From positions 1 through 41,458 of the forward strand of contig JAGPCO010000068.1 of the NCBI GenBank assembly GCA_018058095.1: a stretch of 41,458 nucleotides of DNA. The letters are read 5' to 3'. A model generated the notes under the pieces. The model did not search any database, was not told the origin of the DNA, and saw nothing but the letters and a program-made list of their open reading frames with translations. Source of the DNA: Kofleriaceae bacterium. Its GTDB lineage: Bacteria > Myxococcota_A > Polyangia > Haliangiales > Haliangiaceae. Every line of letters starts with the position of its first letter. Position 1 is the first letter of the stretch. A program made the translations under genes and the position numbers. This document shows, piece by piece, positions 16,928 through 30,160 of the stretch.

Positions 16928-20074
<3,147 letters not shown>

Positions 20075-20097: not shown

Positions 20098-21000
20098 TCA
20101 CGTCCGATCGACGACCTGGTCACCGTCGTACATCACCAGCTGGAGCTGACCGCCGCCGTCGCTGCGCAGCAGGTCGGCGCGCAGCCCGGCCTCGCGCAGG
20201 CGGGCGCGCAGGCGGCTCAGCGCCACGTCCCAGCGGTGACGCAGCTCGAGCGCGTCCACCTCGTCGCGCCACAGCTCGCGGGCCAGCGTCTCCCACCCGA
20301 CCGGGCCGCCGAACGCGACCAGCTCGGAGATGAGGCGCGCGCCGATGCCACCCACCGTGAGCACCGGCTGGTTGGCGCGGTGGATCTCGACCCCGTCGTA
20401 GTGCGCGATCAGGCGCAGCGGCGCCTCCAGGCCGCCGCCGCGCACGGTCGGCGCGTGCCCGGCCGCGGCCAGGTCGGTCAGGCACAACGTGACGGCTAGC
20501 TCGCCGACGGCGAAGCTGTCGCCGGGGGCGATCGGCTGGGGCGCGCCGTCGCCGATGCGGACCCGCCACTGCTCGTCGCTGACCGACCACAGGTGGGCGG
20601 CGGCGCCCGGCACGAAGCGCCCGACCAGGCGCGGCGGCGGGCCGGCGACGATGCTGGCGACCTGGCCAAGCGGGCGCACGCCCAGCCCGGCCGCCTTGAT
20701 CGCCAGCACCCGGGCCGGGGTGGTGACCTCCTCGACCACCAGGCCGAGCCCATCGGCCAGCTCGACCACCAGGCCGGTGGTCAGGCGCACCTCCGACACC
20801 GGCTTGCCGCGCACGCCGAGCAGCCGCCGCAGCGACAGCAGGTACAGCTCGCCCCGGCGCAGGCTGACCAGGGCGTGGGCTTCCGACACCCGGGGGTCGT
20901 CGAGCACCAGGGCCGCGGTGGCGACCCGGCCGATGAGGTCGCCCGGGCCGAGGTGGACCTTGGTCCCGTCGGGCAGGCGGAGCTGGACCTCGGCGCGCAT
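20098..21000 (-). CDS. FHA-domain protein with winged-helix C-terminus
   Basis: A 300-residue protein. The first 90 residues look like a forkhead-associated domain (GDLIGRVATAALVLDDPRVS, with SEAHA and a Leu-rich strand after it), a phosphothreonine reader. The last 100 residues match the OmpR/SARP-type winged helix (ELVAFGGPVGWETLARELW, then ALSRLRARLREAGL and a terminal hairpin). I place the start at ATG 21000, directly before the FHA domain; ATG 21033 is an alternative. There is no receiver domain. Directly upstream of a Ser/Thr kinase gene with a 23-base gap, it is a good candidate for that kinase's target, perhaps a transcription regulator. That role is inferred. Confidence 0.85.
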   Translation of the reverse strand: MRAEVQLRLPDGTKVHLGPGDLIGRVATAALVLDDPRVSEAHALVSLRRGELYLLSLRRLLGVRGKPVSEVRLTTGLVVELADGLGLVVEEVTTPARVLAIKAAGLGVRPLGQVASIVAGPPPRLVGRFVPGAAAHLWSVSDEQWRVRIGDGAPQPIAPGDSFAVGELAVTLCLTDLAAAGHAPTVRGGGLEAPLRLIAHYDGVEIHRANQPVLTVGGIGARLISELVAFGGPVGWETLARELWRDEVDALELRHRWDVALSRLRARLREAGLRADLLRSDGGGQLQLVMYDGDQVVDRT

Positions 21001-21159: not shown

Positions 21160-22101
21160 TCAGGGCCAGGCGGTCGGCGCCGGGCCGCCGACGTGGGCGG
21201 GGCGGCCCCAGTCGCGGTGGCCCAGCACCTGGCCCTCGGCGCGGATGCGGGCGACGTCGTCGAGGTCGATCGTCGCCATCAGCCAGCCCGGGCGGTCGAG
21301 CTCCCCGCTGGCGACGACCCCGTCGGGCGGCAGGCCGCGATCGGGCGGGCAGAACACGTGGGCGGCGCCGACGTTGCGATCGACCGCGAGCGACCAGTCG
21401 GCGTTGCCGACGGTGGGGGCGGTGGCCACGAACAGCTGGTTCTCGAGCGCACGCGCCGCCGCCGCGACCCGGACCCGGTGGTACCCGGCGAGGCCGTCGG
21501 TGCAGCTCGGCACCAGCAGCAGCTCGGCGCCGGCGTCGGCCAGGCGGCGGCCGATGAGCGGGAACTCGGCGTCGTAGCAGATGGTGACGCCGAAGCGGCC
21601 GAAGTCGGCCTCGACCACCAGCTGGCGCTGGCCGGGCGCGATGCCCCACAGCTCGCGCTCGAACCGGGTCATCTGCAGCTTGTCGACGAAGGTGGCGGCC
21701 CCGGTCGGCGCGATCACCGCGGCCTGGTTGTGGTAGACGCGCTGGCCGGCGGCGTCGGTGCCGGCGATCGGCAGGCTGGGCCCGACCAGCCACAGGTCGT
21801 GGGCGCGGGCCAGGTCGACCAGGATCTGCTGGTAGTCGGGCACCAGCGCCTGCAGCGCCTCGAGCTGGGTGGCCAGGGCGGCGCGGGCAACGGCAACGTC
21901 CTCGCCGTCCGCGCCCGGGCGGACGCCGTCGTCGGGCAGCGCCGCCGTCAGCTCCATCGCCGCGTACTCCGGGAACAGGCACAGCCGGGCCCCGTCCTCG
22001 GTCGCCGACGCCAGCATGCCGTCGAGCTTGCGGCGCCACGCGGTCAACGAGCCGATCGGCTCGATCGGGTACTGGCAGCAGGCCAGGGTCAGCTGCCTCA
22101 T
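21160..22101 (-). CDS. Nitrilase-superfamily carbon-nitrogen hydrolase
   Basis: A 313-residue nitrilase-fold enzyme with a complete catalytic triad: Glu45 in FPEYA, Lys141 in VDKLQMTRFE and Cys175 in VTICYDAEFP. It should hydrolyse an amide or nitrile bond in the cytoplasm. The N-terminus (CCQYPIEPIGSLTAWRRKL) and FVDKLQMTRFERELWGI are characteristic of the branch that is often fused or adjacent to a GNAT domain. The ATG overlaps the stop of the acetyltransferase gene (ATGA). Substrate unknown. It closes a three-gene operon with the SnoaL-like and GNAT genes. Confidence 0.93.
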   Translation of the reverse strand: MRQLTLACCQYPIEPIGSLTAWRRKLDGMLASATEDGARLCLFPEYAAMELTAALPDDGVRPGADGEDVAVARAALATQLEALQALVPDYQQILVDLARAHDLWLVGPSLPIAGTDAAGQRVYHNQAAVIAPTGAATFVDKLQMTRFERELWGIAPGQRQLVVEADFGRFGVTICYDAEFPLIGRRLADAGAELLLVPSCTDGLAGYHRVRVAAAARALENQLFVATAPTVGNADWSLAVDRNVGAAHVFCPPDRGLPPDGVVASGELDRPGWLMATIDLDDVARIRAEGQVLGHRDWGRPAHVGGPAPTAWP

Positions 22102-22724
22102 GGCGTCGGCTCCCGGCGCGTGGCCCGCGCCTCCTTGATCCAGAACTGCATCGGCTTGGGGCTCTCGGTCCCGGCCGGATCGTCGAGGTCCTTCCAGCGC
22201 ATCTCGCCGCGCACGTCGGGCAGGGGCACGAAGCCGCGCCGGCGCCAGAACGGATCGAGCGGCTGGTAGGCGGCCGGCCGGCGCGGGTGGTCGGCCGGGC
22301 GAACCACGGCGCAGAACGTCATGCGCGCGAAGCCGAAGCGGGCCGCCGCCTCCTCGCGCCGATCGAAGAAGGCGTGGCCCAGGCCGCGCCCGCGCCAGGC
22401 CGGGTCGAGCACCGACTCGCCGAAGTAGTAGAGCTCGCCCGCGCGGTACCCGGCCTGCGTCAGCGGCGCGACGACGTCGCCCGAGTGTGCGGCCAGCGGC
22501 ATCGCGGTCGAGGCGCCGACGACCTCGCCGCCAGCCCGGGCCAGCACCACGGTGGCGTGTGGATCGGCGGCGTAGCCGCGCAGGTAGCTGGCCTCGTAGT
22601 CGAGGTCGCCGTCGTACAGGTACGGCCAGTCGCGGAACACGGCGATCCGCAGCGCGGCCAGCGCGCCGATCCACGGCGAGATCGCGTCGCCGTGCACCAC
22701 CAGCAGGTCGGCCGCGGCGGTCAC
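22098..22724 (-). CDS. GNAT-family N-acetyltransferase
   Basis: A 208-residue GNAT protein. The acetyl-CoA pyrophosphate loop RGRGLG is at 111-116 inside SVLDPAWRGRGLGHAFFDRR, with strand GELYYFGE before it. The N-terminal part (YDGDLDYEASYLRGYA) is typical of the GNAT branch paired with nitrilase-type hydrolases. The GTG start at 22724 follows the stop of the SnoaL-like gene by two bases. Its stop overlaps the hydrolase start (ATGA). It probably acylates a small molecule that the neighbours also handle; substrate not identifiable. Confidence 0.9.
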   Translation of the reverse strand: MTAAADLLVVHGDAISPWIGALAALRIAVFRDWPYLYDGDLDYEASYLRGYAADPHATVVLARAGGEVVGASTAMPLAAHSGDVVAPLTQAGYRAGELYYFGESVLDPAWRGRGLGHAFFDRREEAAARFGFARMTFCAVVRPADHPRRPAAYQPLDPFWRRRGFVPLPDVRGEMRWKDLDDPAGTESPKPMQFWIKEARATRREPTP

Positions 22725-22726
22725 CG

Positions 22727-23128
22727 TCAGCGCGAGACCTGGGCGATCCAGTCGCGCAGGTTGTAGTAGTTGCTGACCCGGGTGATGCGGCTGCGGCGGA
22801 CGGTGAAGAACGCGCCGCCGGGCAGGGTGTAGCGCTGGCCACGCGCCGGCGGCAGGCCCTCGTCGTCGCGCAGGTACTCGCCCTCCACCACGTACTCGGC
22901 GGCGAGCCGGCCGCCGCCGGCGCTGGCCAGGATGACGATGTCGCGCAGGTGCTCGCGGTAGCTGGTCGCCATGCGATCGAGGAAGGCGCGGAACTGGGCC
23001 CGGCCGACCTGGCGGTCGGACTGGTTGAGGTCGTGGCAGACGTCGTCGCTCAGCAGCGCGCACATCCCGTCCCAGTCGCCGGCGTTGAAGCGCTGGTAGT
23101 AGCGGCGGATCAGCTCGGGGTGGGTCAC
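22727..23128 (-). CDS. SnoaL/NTF2-like ketosteroid-isomerase-related protein
   Basis: A 133-residue single-domain protein of the NTF2-like superfamily. The opening HPELIRRYYQRFNAGDWDGM and the DVCHDLNQSDRQVGRAQFRAF segment match the ketosteroid-isomerase-related group commonly found with GNAT and nitrilase genes. I use GTG 23128; a TTG 18 bases upstream is less likely, and TATAGT sits seven bases before 23128. It is the first gene of the operon. Members of this fold bind small hydrophobic or polar ligands and some are enzymes; the actual ligand is unknown. Confidence 0.88.
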   Translation of the reverse strand: MTHPELIRRYYQRFNAGDWDGMCALLSDDVCHDLNQSDRQVGRAQFRAFLDRMATSYREHLRDIVILASAGGGRLAAEYVVEGEYLRDDEGLPPARGQRYTLPGGAFFTVRRSRITRVSNYYNLRDWIAQVSR

Positions 23129-23135
23129 GGCCGCG

Positions 23136-23141
23136 ACTATA
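23136..23141 (-). promoter_or_regulatory. -10-like hexamer for the SnoaL-GNAT-hydrolase operon
   Basis: On the minus strand TATAGT is followed by seven bases and the GTG at 23128, leaving no room for a ribosome-binding site. It is identical to the hexamer ahead of the gene at 67. Confidence 0.48.
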
Positions 23142-23231
23142 ACCAAGCGGCTCGCCTCGGCGACCCCGCGCCAGGAAAACTCGCCGTGACGTTCGCGCGA
23201 TCCGGAATTCTCGCAGCGGCGATCGCTCTGT

Positions 23232-23243: not shown

Positions 23244-24704
23244 GTGGAGCACGTCGACCTCTGTATCCTCGGCGCCGGCGCGGCCGGCGTGGCCGGCGCG
23301 ATCCGCGCCCATGACCTCGGCAAGCGGGTGGTGCTGGTCGACGGCGGGCCGCTCGGCGGCGCCGCCCTGTTCGACGGCGCGCTGTCGTCGAAGACGCTGT
23401 GGCACCTGGCCGGCGACTACGCCCGGGCCCGGCGGACCGACCGCGGCTACGACGGCTGCGCGGTCACCCTGAACTGGGCCGACGTGCGCGCCACCACCGC
23501 GGCGGCGTGCGCCGAGGCGCAGGCGCTGCTGGCGCAGCAGCTGGCGGCGCTCGGGCCCGGGCTGCGCCGGGTGTGCGGGCGCGGCCGGTTCGTCGACGCG
23601 CACACGGTCGAGGTGCGCGCCGACGATGGCGCGACCAGCCGGGTCCGGGCCGACCGCGTCCTCATCGCCGTCGGCTCCCGGCCGCGGGTGCCGCCCGGCC
23701 TCACCGTCGACGGTGAGTGCGTCGTCACCAGCGATCACATCGAGCGCCAGGCCACCCTGCCGCGCCGGCTGGCCATCGTCGGCGCCGGCGTGGTCGGGTG
23801 CGAGTACGCCACCATCTTCGCCATGCTCGGCCAGACCGAGGTCGAGCTGTTCGACCGGCAGGCCCGCATCCTGCCGTTCGAGGACGAGGACGTGTCGGCG
23901 GTGGTCGCGACCCGCTTCGGCCAGCTCGGCATCCGCGTCCATCGCCAGAGCAAGCTTACCGGCGCGACCCGGATCGGCGCCGAGGTCGAGCTGACCTGGA
24001 CCGACGAGGCCGGCCAGGCCCAGCGGGCCCGCTACGACCGCGTGCTGGTCGCGACCGGGCGGGCGCCGGCGCTGGCCCCGCTCGACCTGGCCGCGGCCGG
24101 CCTGGCCACCGACGACGCCGGCGCGCTGGTGACCGACGCCGGCCGCTGTCGGCCCGATCACATCTGGGCCGCCGGCGACGCCACCCCGGACCTCATGCTG
24201 GCCAACCTGGCCGAGATCGAGGCGCGCCACGCCGTCGAGGAGATGTTCGGCTACGACCCGGCGCCCATCGTGTACGAGGCGCAGTCGGCCATCTACTTCC
24301 TGTCGCCCGAGGTCGCCACCGTCGGCCTGGGCGAGCAGATGGCGCAGGCCAAGGGCATCCCGTACCGGGCCGCGGTGGTGTCCAACCGCCTGAGCCGCCG
24401 CAACCTGGCCATGCGCGCCACCGACGGCTTCGTCAAGCTGCTGGCCCGCCGCGACGGCCGCCTGCTCGGGCTGCGGGTGGTCGGCCCGCAGGCCGGGGCC
24501 TGCATCCAGGGCGTGGCCTTGCTCATCGGTCAGGGCGGCACGCTCGAGGATCTCGATCGCTCGGTCCACCCGCACCCGGCCGTGACCGAGGGGGTGCAGG
24601 AGGCGGCGCGCCTGCTGCTGGGGCGGTCGCTGTACAAGCCGGCGGCGATGGACGGCCTGTGCCGGGTCATCGAGGGCCGGACCCGCCAGGTCCCGAAGAT
24701 CTGA
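23244..24704 (+). CDS. Flavoprotein pyridine-nucleotide oxidoreductase lacking the redox disulfide
   Basis: A 486-residue member of the class I pyridine nucleotide-disulfide oxidoreductase family (dihydrolipoamide dehydrogenase / soluble transhydrogenase SthA branch). The FAD-binding GAGAAG is at 10-15. The NAD(P)-binding strand [14 protein letters not shown] and the second FAD motif IWAAGDAT are present, and the dimerisation domain ends with HPHPAVTE. The redox-active CxxxxC segment reads [14 protein letters not shown], with alanine at both expected cysteine positions (41 and 46). It therefore cannot use disulfide chemistry and may act as a transhydrogenase-like or other NAD(P)H oxidoreductase. 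The GTG start is chosen because the FAD motif begins at once. Confidence 0.88.
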
Positions 24705-24925: not shown

Positions 24926-26437
24926 ATGAACATGCCGCGTCGCTTGCTACTGGGATGGACCGCCTCTGCCCTGATCGTCGCCAGCCTGGTGACGCTGGCC
25001 GGGTGCGACAAGATGGGTGGCGGCGGCAAGAAGAGCGACCCCGGCGCCGGCCCGGCCGGCGGCACGCCGACCACCGGCGACCTGGTCATCGGCCACTACG
25101 CGTCGATGACCGGCAAGGAGGCCACGTTCGGCGTGTCGACCGACCAGGGCATCAAGATCGCGGTCGAGGAGCGCAACGCCGCTGGCGGCATCAAGGGCCG
25201 CAAGATCAAGCTCATCACCGAGGACACCGCGTCCGACGCCGCCCAGGGTGGCACCGCGGTGACCAAGCTCATCACCCAGCACAAGGCGGTCGCCATCCTC
25301 GGCGAGGTCGCGTCGTCGATCTCGCTGGCCGGTGGCGACGTCGCGCAGAAGCTGGGCGTGCCGATGGTCACGCCGTCGTCGACCAACCCCAAGGTGACCC
25401 AGGTCGGCGACAAGATCTTCCGGGTCTGCTTCCTCGACGACTTCCAGGCCTGGGTCAACGCCAAGTTCCTGCGCGAGAACCTGAAGCTGAGCCGCGCCGC
25501 TATCCTGTACGACCAGGCCTCGGCCTACTCCAAGGGGCTGGCCCAGTTCTTCGACAAGTCGTTCACCCAGTTCGGCGGGACCATCGTCGCCAACGAGGCC
25601 TACACCGGCGGCAACCCCGACATCTCGGCCCAGCTGCAGAAGATCAAGACCTCGGGCGCCGAGGCGGTGTTCCTGCCCGGCTACTACAGCGACGCCGGCA
25701 GCTACATGCAGCAGGCCAAGAAGATGGGCCTGACCGTGCCGTTCGTCGGCGGCGATGGCTGGGACTCCGCCCAGTTGCTCAAGATCGCCGGCGAATCGGC
25801 CGAGGGTAACTACTACTCCAACCACTACTCGCCCGACGAGACCCGGGTCGAGGTGGTCGGCTTCGTCGACAAGTACAAGGCCAAGTGGGGCGCCACGCCC
25901 GACGGCCTGGCCGCGCTCGGCTACGACGCGGCCCGGGTCCTGTTCGACGCGCTCGAGCGGGCGCCGTCGACCTCGGGCAACGACGTCGCCGCCGCGCTGG
26001 CCGCGACCAAGGGCTTCTCCGGCGTGACCGGCAAGATCACGATCGACGGCAACCGCGACGCCCAGAAGAAGGCGGTCATCCTCAAGATCGTCGGCGGCAA
26101 GCCGACCATGGTCGCCAGCATCTGGCCCGAGGGTATGACGCCCGACGACGCGCCGACGCCGGCCGCGCCGGGCACCCCGCCAGCCGGCGCTGGCCAGGGC
26201 TCGGGCTCGGCGGCGGCGGCCCCGGCGGCGCCACCCGCGCCGGCGGCGGCGGTCCCGGCCGGGGCGGACGGCATGTCCGGCGGCGAGGGCGCCAGCGGCG
26301 GCGGCACCAGCCTGGGCAAGGGCGGCGCGCCGGTGACCGGCACCACCCGCGGCCGCGGCGCCGGCGGCGGCAAGAAGGCCGACTCGGCCGACCCCGATGA
26401 CGGCGGCGAGGCCGATCCCGACGACGGCGGCGAGTAG
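24926..26437 (+). CDS. Branched-chain amino acid ABC transporter substrate-binding lipoprotein
   Basis: A 503-residue periplasmic-binding protein of the LivJ/LivK type. It is a lipoprotein with lipobox LAGC (Cys27) followed by a Gly/Lys-rich linker. The binding domain spans about 50-403 (IGHYASMTGKEATFGVSTDQG, NAAGGIKGRKI, VPMVTPSSTNPKVTQ, GYDAARVLFDALE). It should deliver leucine/isoleucine/valine or a related amino acid to the permease encoded just downstream. Unusually, residues 405-503 form a roughly 99-residue Pro/Ala/Gly-rich tail ending in repeated DPDDGGEADPDDGGE, absent from typical LivJ. This tail may be surface-exposed or disordered. A Shine-Dalgarno site supports the start. Confidence 0.93.
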   Translation: MNMPRRLLLGWTASALIVASLVTLAGCDKMGGGGKKSDPGAGPAGGTPTTGDLVIGHYASMTGKEATFGVSTDQGIKIAVEERNAAGGIKGRKIKLITEDTASDAAQGGTAVTKLITQHKAVAILGEVASSISLAGGDVAQKLGVPMVTPSSTNPKVTQVGDKIFRVCFLDDFQAWVNAKFLRENLKLSRAAILYDQASAYSKGLAQFFDKSFTQFGGTIVANEAYTGGNPDISAQLQKIKTSGAEAVFLPGYYSDAGSYMQQAKKMGLTVPFVGGDGWDSAQLLKIAGESAEGNYYSNHYSPDETRVEVVGFVDKYKAKWGATPDGLAALGYDAARVLFDALERAPSTSGNDVAAALAATKGFSGVTGKITIDGNRDAQKKAVILKIVGGKPTMVASIWPEGMTPDDAPTPAAPGTPPAGAGQGSGSAAAAPAAPPAPAAAVPAGADGMSGGEGASGGGTSLGKGGAPVTGTTRGRGAGGGKKADSADPDDGGEADPDDGGE

Positions 26438-26482
26438 CGCCCGCGCGCGCCTGCCCCACCGCCCTTCGCCCCCGGCCCCGGC

Positions 26483-27403
26483 GTGAGCACCCTCCTCCAG
26501 ACCATCGTCAGCACGCTGTCGCTCGGCAGCCTGTACGCGCTGATCGCGCTCGGCTACACGCTGGTCTACGGCGTCCTCCGCTTCATCAACTTCGCCCACT
26601 CCGACGTGTTCACCGTCGGCGCCTGGTCGAGCGTGGTGATCGCCGGCGCCTTCGGCTGGGCCAAGACTGGCGCGCCGGCCTTCGCGCTGCCGGTGGTGCT
26701 GGTGCTGTCGATGGCGCTGTGCGCGGCGCTCGGCATCACCATCGAGACCCTGGCCTACCGGCCGCTGCGGCGGGCGCCGCGCCTCAACGTGCTCATCACC
26801 GCCATCGGCGTGTCGCTCTTCCTGCAGAACACCGGCCAGCTCAAGGCGGTGTTCGGCCCGTCGCCGACGCCGTCGGCCAAGCTGCTGGTCGACCACGAGC
26901 TGCTGACCGTGGCCGGCGTGCGGATCGGCCTGGTCGACGTGGTGGTCGTCGTGCTGGCCGGCGCGCTCATGCTCGGCCTCGAGCTGCTCATCTTCCGGAC
27001 CCGCCTCGGCCGGGCCATGCGCGCGGTGTCGTTCGACGAGCGGGTCGCGGCCCTGCTCGGGGTCGACGTCAACCGGGTGGTGTCCATCACCTTCGGCATC
27101 GGCTCGGCCCTGGCCGCGGCCGGCGGCGTCATCTACGCCCTCAAGTTCCCGTCGCTCGGCCAGCCGGCCGACGCCACCTGGGTCCTGCTCGGCCTCAAGG
27201 CCTTCGTCGCCGCCGTGGTCGGCGGCATCGGCAACGTGCGCGGCGCGGTGGCCGGGGCCATGCTCATCGCCGCCATCGAGAAGTTCGGCGGCGCGTACCT
27301 GTCGGCCTCGCTGCAGGACGTGTACGTCTTCGCGGTGCTCATCCTGATCCTGCTGTGGCGCCCGAGCGGCCTGTTCGGGCGCGCGGTGGTGGAGAAGGTA
27401 TGA
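26483..27403 (+). CDS. livH: Branched-chain amino acid ABC transporter permease LivH
   Basis: A 306-residue inner-membrane permease of the LivH family. The N-terminal LSLGSLYALIALGYTLVYGVLRFINFAHSD (shown in part by its key GYTLVYG and FINFAH) is diagnostic, as is GGIGNVRGAV near the C-terminus, the loop that contacts the ATPases. About eight membrane helices are predicted. The GTG start follows the substrate-binding gene by 45 bases. Its stop overlaps the livM start (ATGA). It forms the membrane channel with LivM. Confidence 0.94.
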   Translation: MSTLLQTIVSTLSLGSLYALIALGYTLVYGVLRFINFAHSDVFTVGAWSSVVIAGAFGWAKTGAPAFALPVVLVLSMALCAALGITIETLAYRPLRRAPRLNVLITAIGVSLFLQNTGQLKAVFGPSPTPSAKLLVDHELLTVAGVRIGLVDVVVVVLAGALMLGLELLIFRTRLGRAMRAVSFDERVAALLGVDVNRVVSITFGIGSALAAAGGVIYALKFPSLGQPADATWVLLGLKAFVAAVVGGIGNVRGAVAGAMLIAAIEKFGGAYLSASLQDVYVFAVLILILLWRPSGLFGRAVVEKV

Positions 27404-28572
27404 AGGCGCTGGCCGACCGCGTCGCCGGGCACCGCGGCCCGCTGTGGCGGGCCAGCCTGGCCTCGGCCTGGCCGCTGCTGGTCGGCATCGCCGTCGCCTT
27501 CGTGCTGCAGGCGGTGGTCGCGCCCGAGCTGGGGGCGTACTGGGCCCGCATCCTGCTCGACGTCGGCATCGCCATCGTGCTGGCGGTGTCCCTGGGCATC
27601 GTCAACGGCTTCGCCGGCCAGTTCTCGCTCGGCCACGCCGGCTTCATGCTGGTCGGTGGCTACACCGCCGGCGCGCTCACCTACTACGGCTCGATCAAGC
27701 TGTGGGGCAGCGCCGACCTGCACGGCGGCTTCCTCGGCAGCGGCGACCTCCTGTTCGTCAGCGCCTGCGTCGCCGGCGGCCTGGTCGCCGCCCTGGCCGG
27801 CCTGGTGGTCGGGCTGCCGTCGCTGCGGCTGCGCGGCGACTACCTGGCCATCGTCACCCTCGGATTCGGCGAGATCGTGCGCGTGCTGGTGACCGTGTCC
27901 GACGACGTGGTGTACCCGGCCGAGGCCAAGACCCAGGGCCTGTGGTCGCTGCTCGACAACCTGGGCGGCTCGCTCGGCTTCTCGCCCAAGCCGCCGTCGT
28001 ACGTGTCGGCCACGCCGTGGCTGGAGGCGACCGGCCACGCCGGGGTGTTCTTCGCCTACCTGTTCGCCGCCATCCTGGTCATCGTCGCCTACCGGCTCAA
28101 GACCTCGAGCAAGGGACGGGCGCTGCTCGCCGTGCGCGAGAACGAGATCGCGGCCGAGGCCATGGGCATCGACACCGCCCGCGCCAAGGTGTCGGCCTTC
28201 GTCATGGCAGCGTTCTTCGCCGGCATCGGCGGCGGCCTGTTCGCGCACGAGTTCGGCGTGACCCTGTCGCCGTCGAGCCTGGGCTTCCAGAAGTCGATCG
28301 ACCTGGTCATCATGGTCGTGCTGGGCGGCATGGGCTCGATCAGCGGCGCGGTGCTGGCCGCGGCCTTCCTGACCGTGGTGCCCGAGCTGTTCCGCGAGTT
28401 CGCGCAGTACCGGATGATCGTCTACGCGCTGGCGCTCATCGCCGTGATGATCCTGCGCCCGCAGGGGCTGTTCGGGCTCAAGGAGCTGTGGGAGCTCGGG
28501 CCGTGGCGCCGGCTGTTCCGGCTCGACCGGCCCACCTCGGCCACGGGTCGCGGCGGCGGAGGCCAGGCGTGA
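27400..28572 (+). CDS. livM: Branched-chain amino acid ABC transporter permease LivM
   Basis: A 390-residue inner-membrane permease. GFAGQFSLGHAGFMLVGGY and LRLRGDYLAIVTLGFGEI are LivM hallmarks. RENEIAAEAMGID and the LGGMGSISGAV loop mark the ATPase-coupling region. About ten membrane helices are expected. The ATG overlaps the livH stop and the end overlaps the livG start, so production is coupled. The C-terminus ends in a Gly-rich tail after the last helix. Confidence 0.94.
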   Translation: MKALADRVAGHRGPLWRASLASAWPLLVGIAVAFVLQAVVAPELGAYWARILLDVGIAIVLAVSLGIVNGFAGQFSLGHAGFMLVGGYTAGALTYYGSIKLWGSADLHGGFLGSGDLLFVSACVAGGLVAALAGLVVGLPSLRLRGDYLAIVTLGFGEIVRVLVTVSDDVVYPAEAKTQGLWSLLDNLGGSLGFSPKPPSYVSATPWLEATGHAGVFFAYLFAAILVIVAYRLKTSSKGRALLAVRENEIAAEAMGIDTARAKVSAFVMAAFFAGIGGGLFAHEFGVTLSPSSLGFQKSIDLVIMVVLGGMGSISGAVLAAAFLTVVPELFREFAQYRMIVYALALIAVMILRPQGLFGLKELWELGPWRRLFRLDRPTSATGRGGGGQA

Positions 28573-29443
28573 CCGCGCCGGCGCTCGAGGCGCGTGGCCT
28601 GGCCCTGGCCTTCGGCGGGCTCAAGGCGGTGAGCGACTTCTCCCTCGCCGTGCCGGCCGGCGGGCTGCACGGCCTGATCGGCCCCAACGGCGCCGGCAAG
28701 ACCACGGCGTTCAACCTGCTGACCGGCGTGTACCGGCCCGACGCCGGCGAGGTCCACCTCGGCGGGGCCCGGGTCGACGGCAAGAAGCCGTCGGTCATCG
28801 CCCGGGCCGGGCTGGCCCGCACCTTCCAGAACATCCGGTTGTTCGGCGAGCTGAGCGTGCTCGACAACGTGCGCACCGCCGCCGGCGTGCGCGCGCGCAG
28901 CGGCCTGGTCCGCAGCATCCTGCGCACCCCGCTGTACCTGGCCGAGGAGCGGGCCATCACCGAGCGCGCGCGCGAGCTGCTCGAGGTGCTGGGCATCGCC
29001 CACCGGGAGGGCGAGCAGGCCAAGAGCCTGCCGTACGGCGACCAGCGCCGGCTCGAGATCGCCCGCGCCCTGGCGACCGAGCCGAAGGTGCTCCTCCTCG
29101 ACGAGCCGGTCGCCGGCATGAACACCCAGGAGAAGAAGGAGATGCGCGGCCTCATCCAGTCGCTGCGCACCTCGTTCGGGGTCGCCATCCTGCTCATCGA
29201 GCACGACATGGGCCTGGTCATGGACATCTGCGAGCACATCACGGTGCTCGACCACGGCGTGACCATCGCCCGCGGCGTCGCCGCCGACATCCAGGCCAAC
29301 CCGGCGGTGATCGAGGCCTACCTGGGCGTGCCCGACGACGCGGTCGGCCACCCCGAGGCGGTCGTCGCCTTGCCGACCGACCTGCCGGCGCCGCTGGCGG
29401 GGGATCCGGATCCGTCGCGGGGCGACCGAGGGGAGGCCGGCTG

Positions 29444-29444
<1 letters not shown>
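28569..29444 (+). CDS. livG: Branched-chain amino acid ABC transporter ATPase LivG
   Basis: A 291-residue cytoplasmic ATPase. Walker A GPNGAGKT (38-45), the LivG-type signature LPYGDQRRLEIARAL (from 154), Walker B VLLLDEP (174-180) and the switch histidine in LIEHDM are all present. AGLARTFQNIRLF is also typical of LivG. The last 35 residues are an Asp/Pro-rich extension. The GTG start overlaps the livM stop. It drives import together with LivF. Confidence 0.95.

Positions 29445-30160
<716 letters not shown>

Follow-up and report, generated by a model that had tools for sequence, protein, structure and literature searches.

A Flavoprotein Family with a Predicted Lipoamide Dehydrogenase Fold, a Conserved His-Glu Dyad and No Redox Cysteine Pair

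The Flavoprotein Gene and Its Surroundings

The window, that is, the whole 41,458-nucleotide stretch of Kofleriaceae DNA analyzed here, contains at positions 23244..24704 of the plus strand a single open reading frame that begins with GTG, is closed by a stop codon and encodes 486 residues. A codon-usage model, with the window as its training set, called the gene, and several orthologues begin at the same alignment position as the window protein. Promoter and terminator scans returned no result. Pfam searches assigned a Pyr_redox_2 domain to residues 5-324 (E 7.3e-44) and a Pyr_redox_dim dimerization domain (PF02852) to residues 349-455 (E 5.7e-27; 24288..24608, plus strand).

An AlphaFold2 model of the protein, for which the alignment input was 42 rows comprising the window and related-locus rows only, had a mean pLDDT of 94.3 and a pTM of 0.92. 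Nearly all of the top 50 Foldseek matches to this model were titled lipoamide dehydrogenase (Lpd), with TMq values of 0.89-0.92, and pairwise VIA-align comparisons gave close superpositions with 2qae (Z 47.6, rmsd 1.4, 457 residues aligned) and 6uzi (rmsd 1.6). The protein is a full-length, two-domain flavoprotein with a predicted Lpd fold. The original prediction that it is a homologue of the flavin disulfide reductases (FDRs) was thus borne out by both Pfam domains, by the FAD and NAD GxGxxG motifs and by the Lpd-like fold of the model.

Upstream and divergent from the flavoprotein gene, all on the minus strand, are genes for a SnoaL-like protein (22727..23146; 97 bases away), a GNAT acetyltransferase (22098..22724) and a carbon-nitrogen hydrolase (21160..22101). 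Beyond these are a 300-residue protein (20098-21000, minus strand) whose sole Pfam match at E 0.001 is an N-terminal FHA domain, and a 1048-residue protein (16928-20074, minus strand) that combines a Ser/Thr protein kinase domain at the N-terminal end with WD40 repeats at the C-terminal end. Downstream by 221 bases on the plus strand is a five-gene liv-type (branched-chain-amino-acid) ABC transporter operon (24926-30160) encoding a periplasmic binding protein, two permeases and two ATPases. The same transporter genes cluster two genes further on from the orthologue in locus L123.

The divergent pair of carbon-nitrogen hydrolase and GNAT genes was found at five of the 12 same-family loci at which the flavoprotein gene had been called (the window and L124-L127), and L128 has the hydrolase without the GNAT gene. 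The three nearest loci from the same genus (L119-L121) do not have the pair next to the flavoprotein gene; in L121 the contig ends after a single upstream gene. At three of the 35 loci (L131, L133 and L136) the flavoprotein gene had not been called, and these stand outside the neighborhood counts; at the remaining loci the flanks differ between lineages. Since the neighbors vary in this way, the genomic context names no substrate and we have drawn no pathway from it. At two loci (L141, 10504-11271; L144, 270-986) a divergent protein beside the orthologue resembles, by eye, a peroxiredoxin-glutaredoxin fusion.

Replacement of the Redox Cysteines

A pair of cysteines is the defining feature of the flavoprotein disulfide reductases, a textbook enzyme family. 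The best solved-structure matches to the window protein in phmmer searches were dihydrolipoamide dehydrogenases, including 1ebd (E 4.7e-55), whose motif GGVCLNVGCIPSK aligned with window residues 38-50 (23355..23393, plus strand) ungapped over the redox motif. In all three of the phmmer alignments to solved Lpd chains that were shown, G38-G39-A40-A41-L-F-D-G-A46-L-S-S-K50 lay ungapped on GGxCxxxxCxPSK. Ala41 and Ala46 therefore occupy both redox-cysteine positions, as had been claimed for this protein, and Ser48 occupies that of the proline. In the model, helix 39-63 runs continuously through the former redox motif.

Conservation was counted over 36 family rows, of which 35 include the motif, together with 16 SthA-like rows and, for the proline, 76 canonical rows. 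All 35 motif-bearing rows have Ala at position 46, and 34 of them have Gly at position 41, the exception being the window protein with its Ala. The state of the family is consequently Gly41...Ala46, not Ala...Ala, and Ala41 is a variant peculiar to the window protein. Leu47, Ser49 and Lys50 were each present in 35/35 rows, and Ser48 in 34/35 (Thr in L183), at a position that is Pro in 76/76 canonical rows. The constancy of the motif over the family rows means that it is neither a chance state nor a sequencing slip.

The window protein has nine cysteines (at 7, 72, 89, 111, 159, 186, 302, 420 and 473), just two of which show broad conservation: Cys186 (36/36) and, in the first FAD strand, Cys7 (32/35). 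Residue 454 is Cys in 26/36 family rows and Ala in the window protein, and there are other columns with partial Cys. We found no conserved column in the 36-row family alignment that could supply a replacement pair near the motif so, judged by sequence conservation, there is no displaced and still paired set of cysteines.

A search of the window's own genome with a Cys-pair pattern gave no matches, a zero that carries no weight, as the pattern was too narrow for the motif of L002 and the motif of L001 is masked by N. L001 (G000:C204), an Lpd-like gene of the same genome, has a run of N over its N-terminal part, including the redox motif.

Conserved Cofactor Motifs and the His-Glu Dyad

The FAD motif, the NAD motif and the C-terminal HPHPAVTE were all retained, in keeping with the original prediction (coordinates in this section are on the plus strand). 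In the FAD-binding GxGxxG at residues 10-15 (23271..23288), Gly10, Gly12 and Gly15 were found in 35/35 rows, and the second FAD-binding motif, Gly311-Asp312 (24174..24179), in 36/36. The NAD(P)-binding GxGxxGCE spans residues 180-187 (23781..23804), with Cys186 invariant in 36/36 rows; Cys186 is also frequent in the SthA-like rows (9/16). In the segment D204-R205-x-x-R208 (23853..23867), Asp204 and Arg208 were conserved in 36/36 rows and Arg205 in 35/36. Alignment to the Escherichia coli proteins Lpd, Gor and SthA placed Asp204 opposite the Glu by which Lpd discriminates in favor of NADH.

The HPHPAVTE segment at residues 442-449 (24567..24590) aligned on the HxHP...E of solved Lpd chains in phmmer, which holds the catalytic His and Glu of Lpd. 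His442, Pro443, His444 and Glu449 were each present in 35/36 rows. The sole row without the His444-Glu449 dyad (L028) has an unrelated tail beyond the end of the match, at window residue 436-437. Among other positions, Trp53, Asp58 and Arg67 were each conserved in 35/35 rows, and Arg391 and Arg411 in 36/36.

The loss of both catalytic cysteines would be in line with a pseudoenzyme, a degenerate Lpd retained for its fold or for partner binding. We regard this as very improbable, because the motifs for FAD and NAD, like His444 and Glu449 of the dyad, have remained near invariant among proteins with 41-71% identity to the window protein, and constraint of this strength argues against a dead enzyme.

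Family Boundaries and Distribution

Orthologues were identified in 34 of 192 related genomes, the window's own included, at 41-71% identity and at least 322 bits. The next best match after the family scored 222 bits at 37% identity and has an intact CxxxxC (L152). When a degenerate DNA pattern encoding GALSSKTxW was run over 377 genomes of the phylum, 25 matched, of which 18 had already been found in the 192-genome search, five were new and two were chance matches. The five new genomes (G194, G265, G392, G396 and G448) belong to three taxonomic families outside the 192-genome search. The two chance matches (G187 and G269) were rejected as carriers of the family, the stretch that was fetched having yielded no homologue. 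The pattern matched none of 299, 119 and 101 genomes in the phyla of G482, G478 and G479, respectively, and none of eight single genomes outside the phylum, zeros that are not proof of absence because an exact pattern can miss variants. A scan of genome contigs, in which 80 of 378 relatives were kept (27-36% identity), found the family motif in none of them. Among the genomes searched, the family was seen in one phylum only.

Phylogenetic analyses indicated that these proteins form a lineage of their own. A tree of 129 rows united the family's 35 rows with L151, whose motif region is missing, in a single clade with an SH-aLRT of 100, the stem of which measured 1.05 changes per column. The partial sequences L149 and L150, and duplicate loci, were left out. 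A tree of 59 rows, in which the E. coli proteins Lpd, Gor and SthA served as anchors, recovered the 19 rows of the family as one clade and the 13 rows of the SthA group as another, each at 100/100 (bootstrap/SH-aLRT). The phylogenetic comparison that had been proposed thus placed the family in one clade, separate from both SthA and Lpd. Within the same tree, SthA-like rows of the window's class grouped with rows named Polyangia and Polyangiaceae, which points to Myxococcota as the phylum.

Scores against curated profiles gave a comparable picture. All 11 members scanned singly fell below every NCBIfam cut-off listed for them, the models listed being the best 25 of 41 families for the window protein and those at E 1e-80 or better for the 10 other members. 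The top-scoring NCBIfam model was TIGR01350 (Lpd), at 296.7 bits for the window protein and 290.1-374 bits for the 10 others versus a cut-off of 408.8. The window protein scored 269.1 bits against TIGR02053 (MerA; cut-off 454.45), 232.9 bits against NF003585 (SthA; cut-off 465) and 229 bits against NF005883 (LpdA type; cut-off 479), for which two other members were listed, at 281.5 and 285 bits. Because Lpd is the best-scoring model, proteins of this family are at risk of being named dihydrolipoyl dehydrogenase, an activity that is not possible for them in the usual way.

Relationship to the Soluble Transhydrogenase SthA

The family resembles SthA/UdhA (NF003585) in having lost the dithiol and in having a similar NAD domain, with GCEYA common to both. 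In the 59-row tree the two were sisters at 94/79, so SthA is a possible sister clade, at a support that falls short of the mark (a star) by which the tree tool denotes a settled branch. This likeness raises the possibility that the family is a second type of soluble pyridine nucleotide transhydrogenase, exchanging hydride between NADH and NADP+ through FAD in either direction. We consider this unlikely. In its favor, the residues Cys186, Asp204, Phe212, Arg328 and Arg386 are the commonest or are frequent in the SthA-like rows too, Arg205 and Arg208 could hold a 2'-phosphate, and a search with the SthA model, at a threshold of E 1e-110, found nothing in the genome from which the window comes. 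In addition, the available text of PMC9460512 reports that E. coli SthA C45A, from which the last motif thiol had been removed, still passes 62% of NADH reducing equivalents to thio-NADP+.

Against this reading, the highest SthA-model score among 14 family members was 289.2 bits, far below the cut-off of 465, and 9 of the 34 family-bearing genomes also hold an SthA above that cut-off. The marks of SthA given in the available text of PMC9460512 are CXXXXT and YXXXXE, and both are absent from the family: there is no Cys at 41 and no Thr at 46, which is Ala in 35/35 rows, and position 444 is His in 35/36. In the SthA-like rows, the second Cys position is Thr in 16/16, residue 442 is Phe in 16/16 and residue 444 is Tyr or Phe in 14/16. 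SthA has Thr-x-Pro and has lost the dyad, whereas the family has Ala-Leu-Ser and has kept it.

We also considered the family as a simple replacement for SthA, and rejected this based on the co-occurrence of the two in the same 9 of 34 genomes. SthA was found in 59 of the 158 other genomes, a frequency that is not significantly different (Fisher p 0.32), so the distribution neither proves nor excludes functional overlap.

The original prediction had stated that SthA keeps one cysteine and that this family is a further step away. The first statement is correct for E. coli SthA (GGGCTHWGTIPSK), but the first Cys was present in just 4/16 SthA-like rows. The second is partly right, but SthA-family proteins without both cysteines occur in the same phylum: three proteins (L193, L187 and L188, from G164:C33, G106:C47 and G181:C185) pass NF003585 at 567.7, 540.3 and 557.1 bits, respectively, versus the cut-off of 465, with the motif GGAAVHTGTLPSK or GGAGVHTGTLPSK and neither cysteine. 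These three are presumed to be transhydrogenases without a thiol at the site. A Streptomyces avermitilis transhydrogenase with the motif SxxxxT is mentioned in PMC9460512. As most SthA-like rows also lack the first Cys, the double loss alone is not unique to the family; judged from the aligned residues, it is the combination of lost cysteines and kept dyad that separates the family from SthA.

Proposed Function

Since the window protein's relatives share the loss of cysteines, electron transfer from NADH to another acceptor is the probable role of the family. Our preferred reading, which we hold to be reasonably probable, is that the window protein is a dithiol-free FAD-dependent NAD(P)H:acceptor oxidoreductase of the Lpd fold that most likely passes electrons from NADH to a quinone-like acceptor. 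The named precedents, which are compared below, suggest reduction of FAD by NAD(P)H, the absence of disulfide reductase activity and a quinone-type acceptor, and the fold family suggests a soluble dimer, the location of the pocket and a role for the dyad. NADH, to which Asp204 at the specificity position points, would reduce FAD. In the absence of a Cys pair as relay, electrons would pass directly from the reduced FAD to an acceptor other than a disulfide, most likely one resembling a quinone, bound in the former disulfide-substrate pocket, where His444-Glu449 from the partner subunit may serve as the acid-base. A new substrate for this protein, as had been suggested, is possible.

Electrons on FAD might otherwise go to oxygen, the protein being an H2O2-making NAD(P)H oxidase or a redox sensor that changes shape with NADH. 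We consider this improbable, since the locus gives no hint of peroxide use, leakage to oxygen is a common side reaction of such flavins, and conservation of the His-Glu dyad suggests that protons are handled on a substrate. There are nevertheless precedents for such behavior in the available texts of two studies: coupling was lost in E. coli SthA C45A, which sends 37% of electrons to H2O2 (PMC9460512), and NADH-dependent H2O2 formation causes a structural change in the yeast protein Irc15p (PMC6296175).

The clade, with Gly/Ala and Ala at the cysteines, Ser at the proline and the dyad kept, offers a natural test of the purpose of the dyad without a thiol. We tentatively speculate, as a possibility we rate as rather doubtful, that it is an FDR-superfamily subgroup of its own (Gly/AlaXXXXAla with HisXXXXGlu) in which the disulfide pocket has turned into a site for direct exchange between FAD and a non-thiol metabolite, with the dyad as acid-base. 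To our knowledge, such an exchange using the retained dyad is not a known reaction in the FDR superfamily. FDR-fold enzymes without a dithiol are of a known kind, while the motif and spread of this family look new; the open-access literature that was searched yielded no bacterial clade of this type.

Comparison with Known Enzymes

The family shares with Lpd the fold, the domain order and the His-Glu dyad, and differs from it in lacking the CXXXXC pair and in forming a separate clade. Mercuric reductase (MerA) likewise has the same fold, the difference being that the family has no Cys pair in the site. A solved precedent for this fold with Ala at both Cys positions, as in the window protein, is the MerA C136A/C141A double mutant 4k7z, to which VIA-align matched the model with Z 45.0 and rmsd 1.9.

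Among enzymes whose cysteine pair is incomplete is Mycobacterium tuberculosis LpdA (Rv3303c type; NF005883, 1xdi), which, as described in the available text of PMC6296175, lacks one Cys and the His-Glu dyad and is active as a quinone reductase but not as a disulfide reductase. The family, by contrast, has neither cysteine and retains the dyad.

The closest likeness in published description is to Irc15p of Saccharomyces cerevisiae, which has Tyr and Ala in place of the cysteines and retains the dyad (PMC6296175). The second position is therefore Ala in both, while the first is Tyr in Irc15p and Gly or Ala in the family. According to the available text of that report, Irc15p accepts electrons from either NADH or NADPH, is active with menadione, DCPIP, ferricyanide and MTT, and is inactive with cystine, glutathione and lipoamide, with no disulfide reduction; the acceptors on record there are artificial ones. 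Irc15p is described as a microtubule-linked protein that originated as a duplicate of yeast Lpd1 (PMC6296175) and, because of this derivation, it serves as an analogy only for the dithiol-free, dyad-bearing bacterial family.
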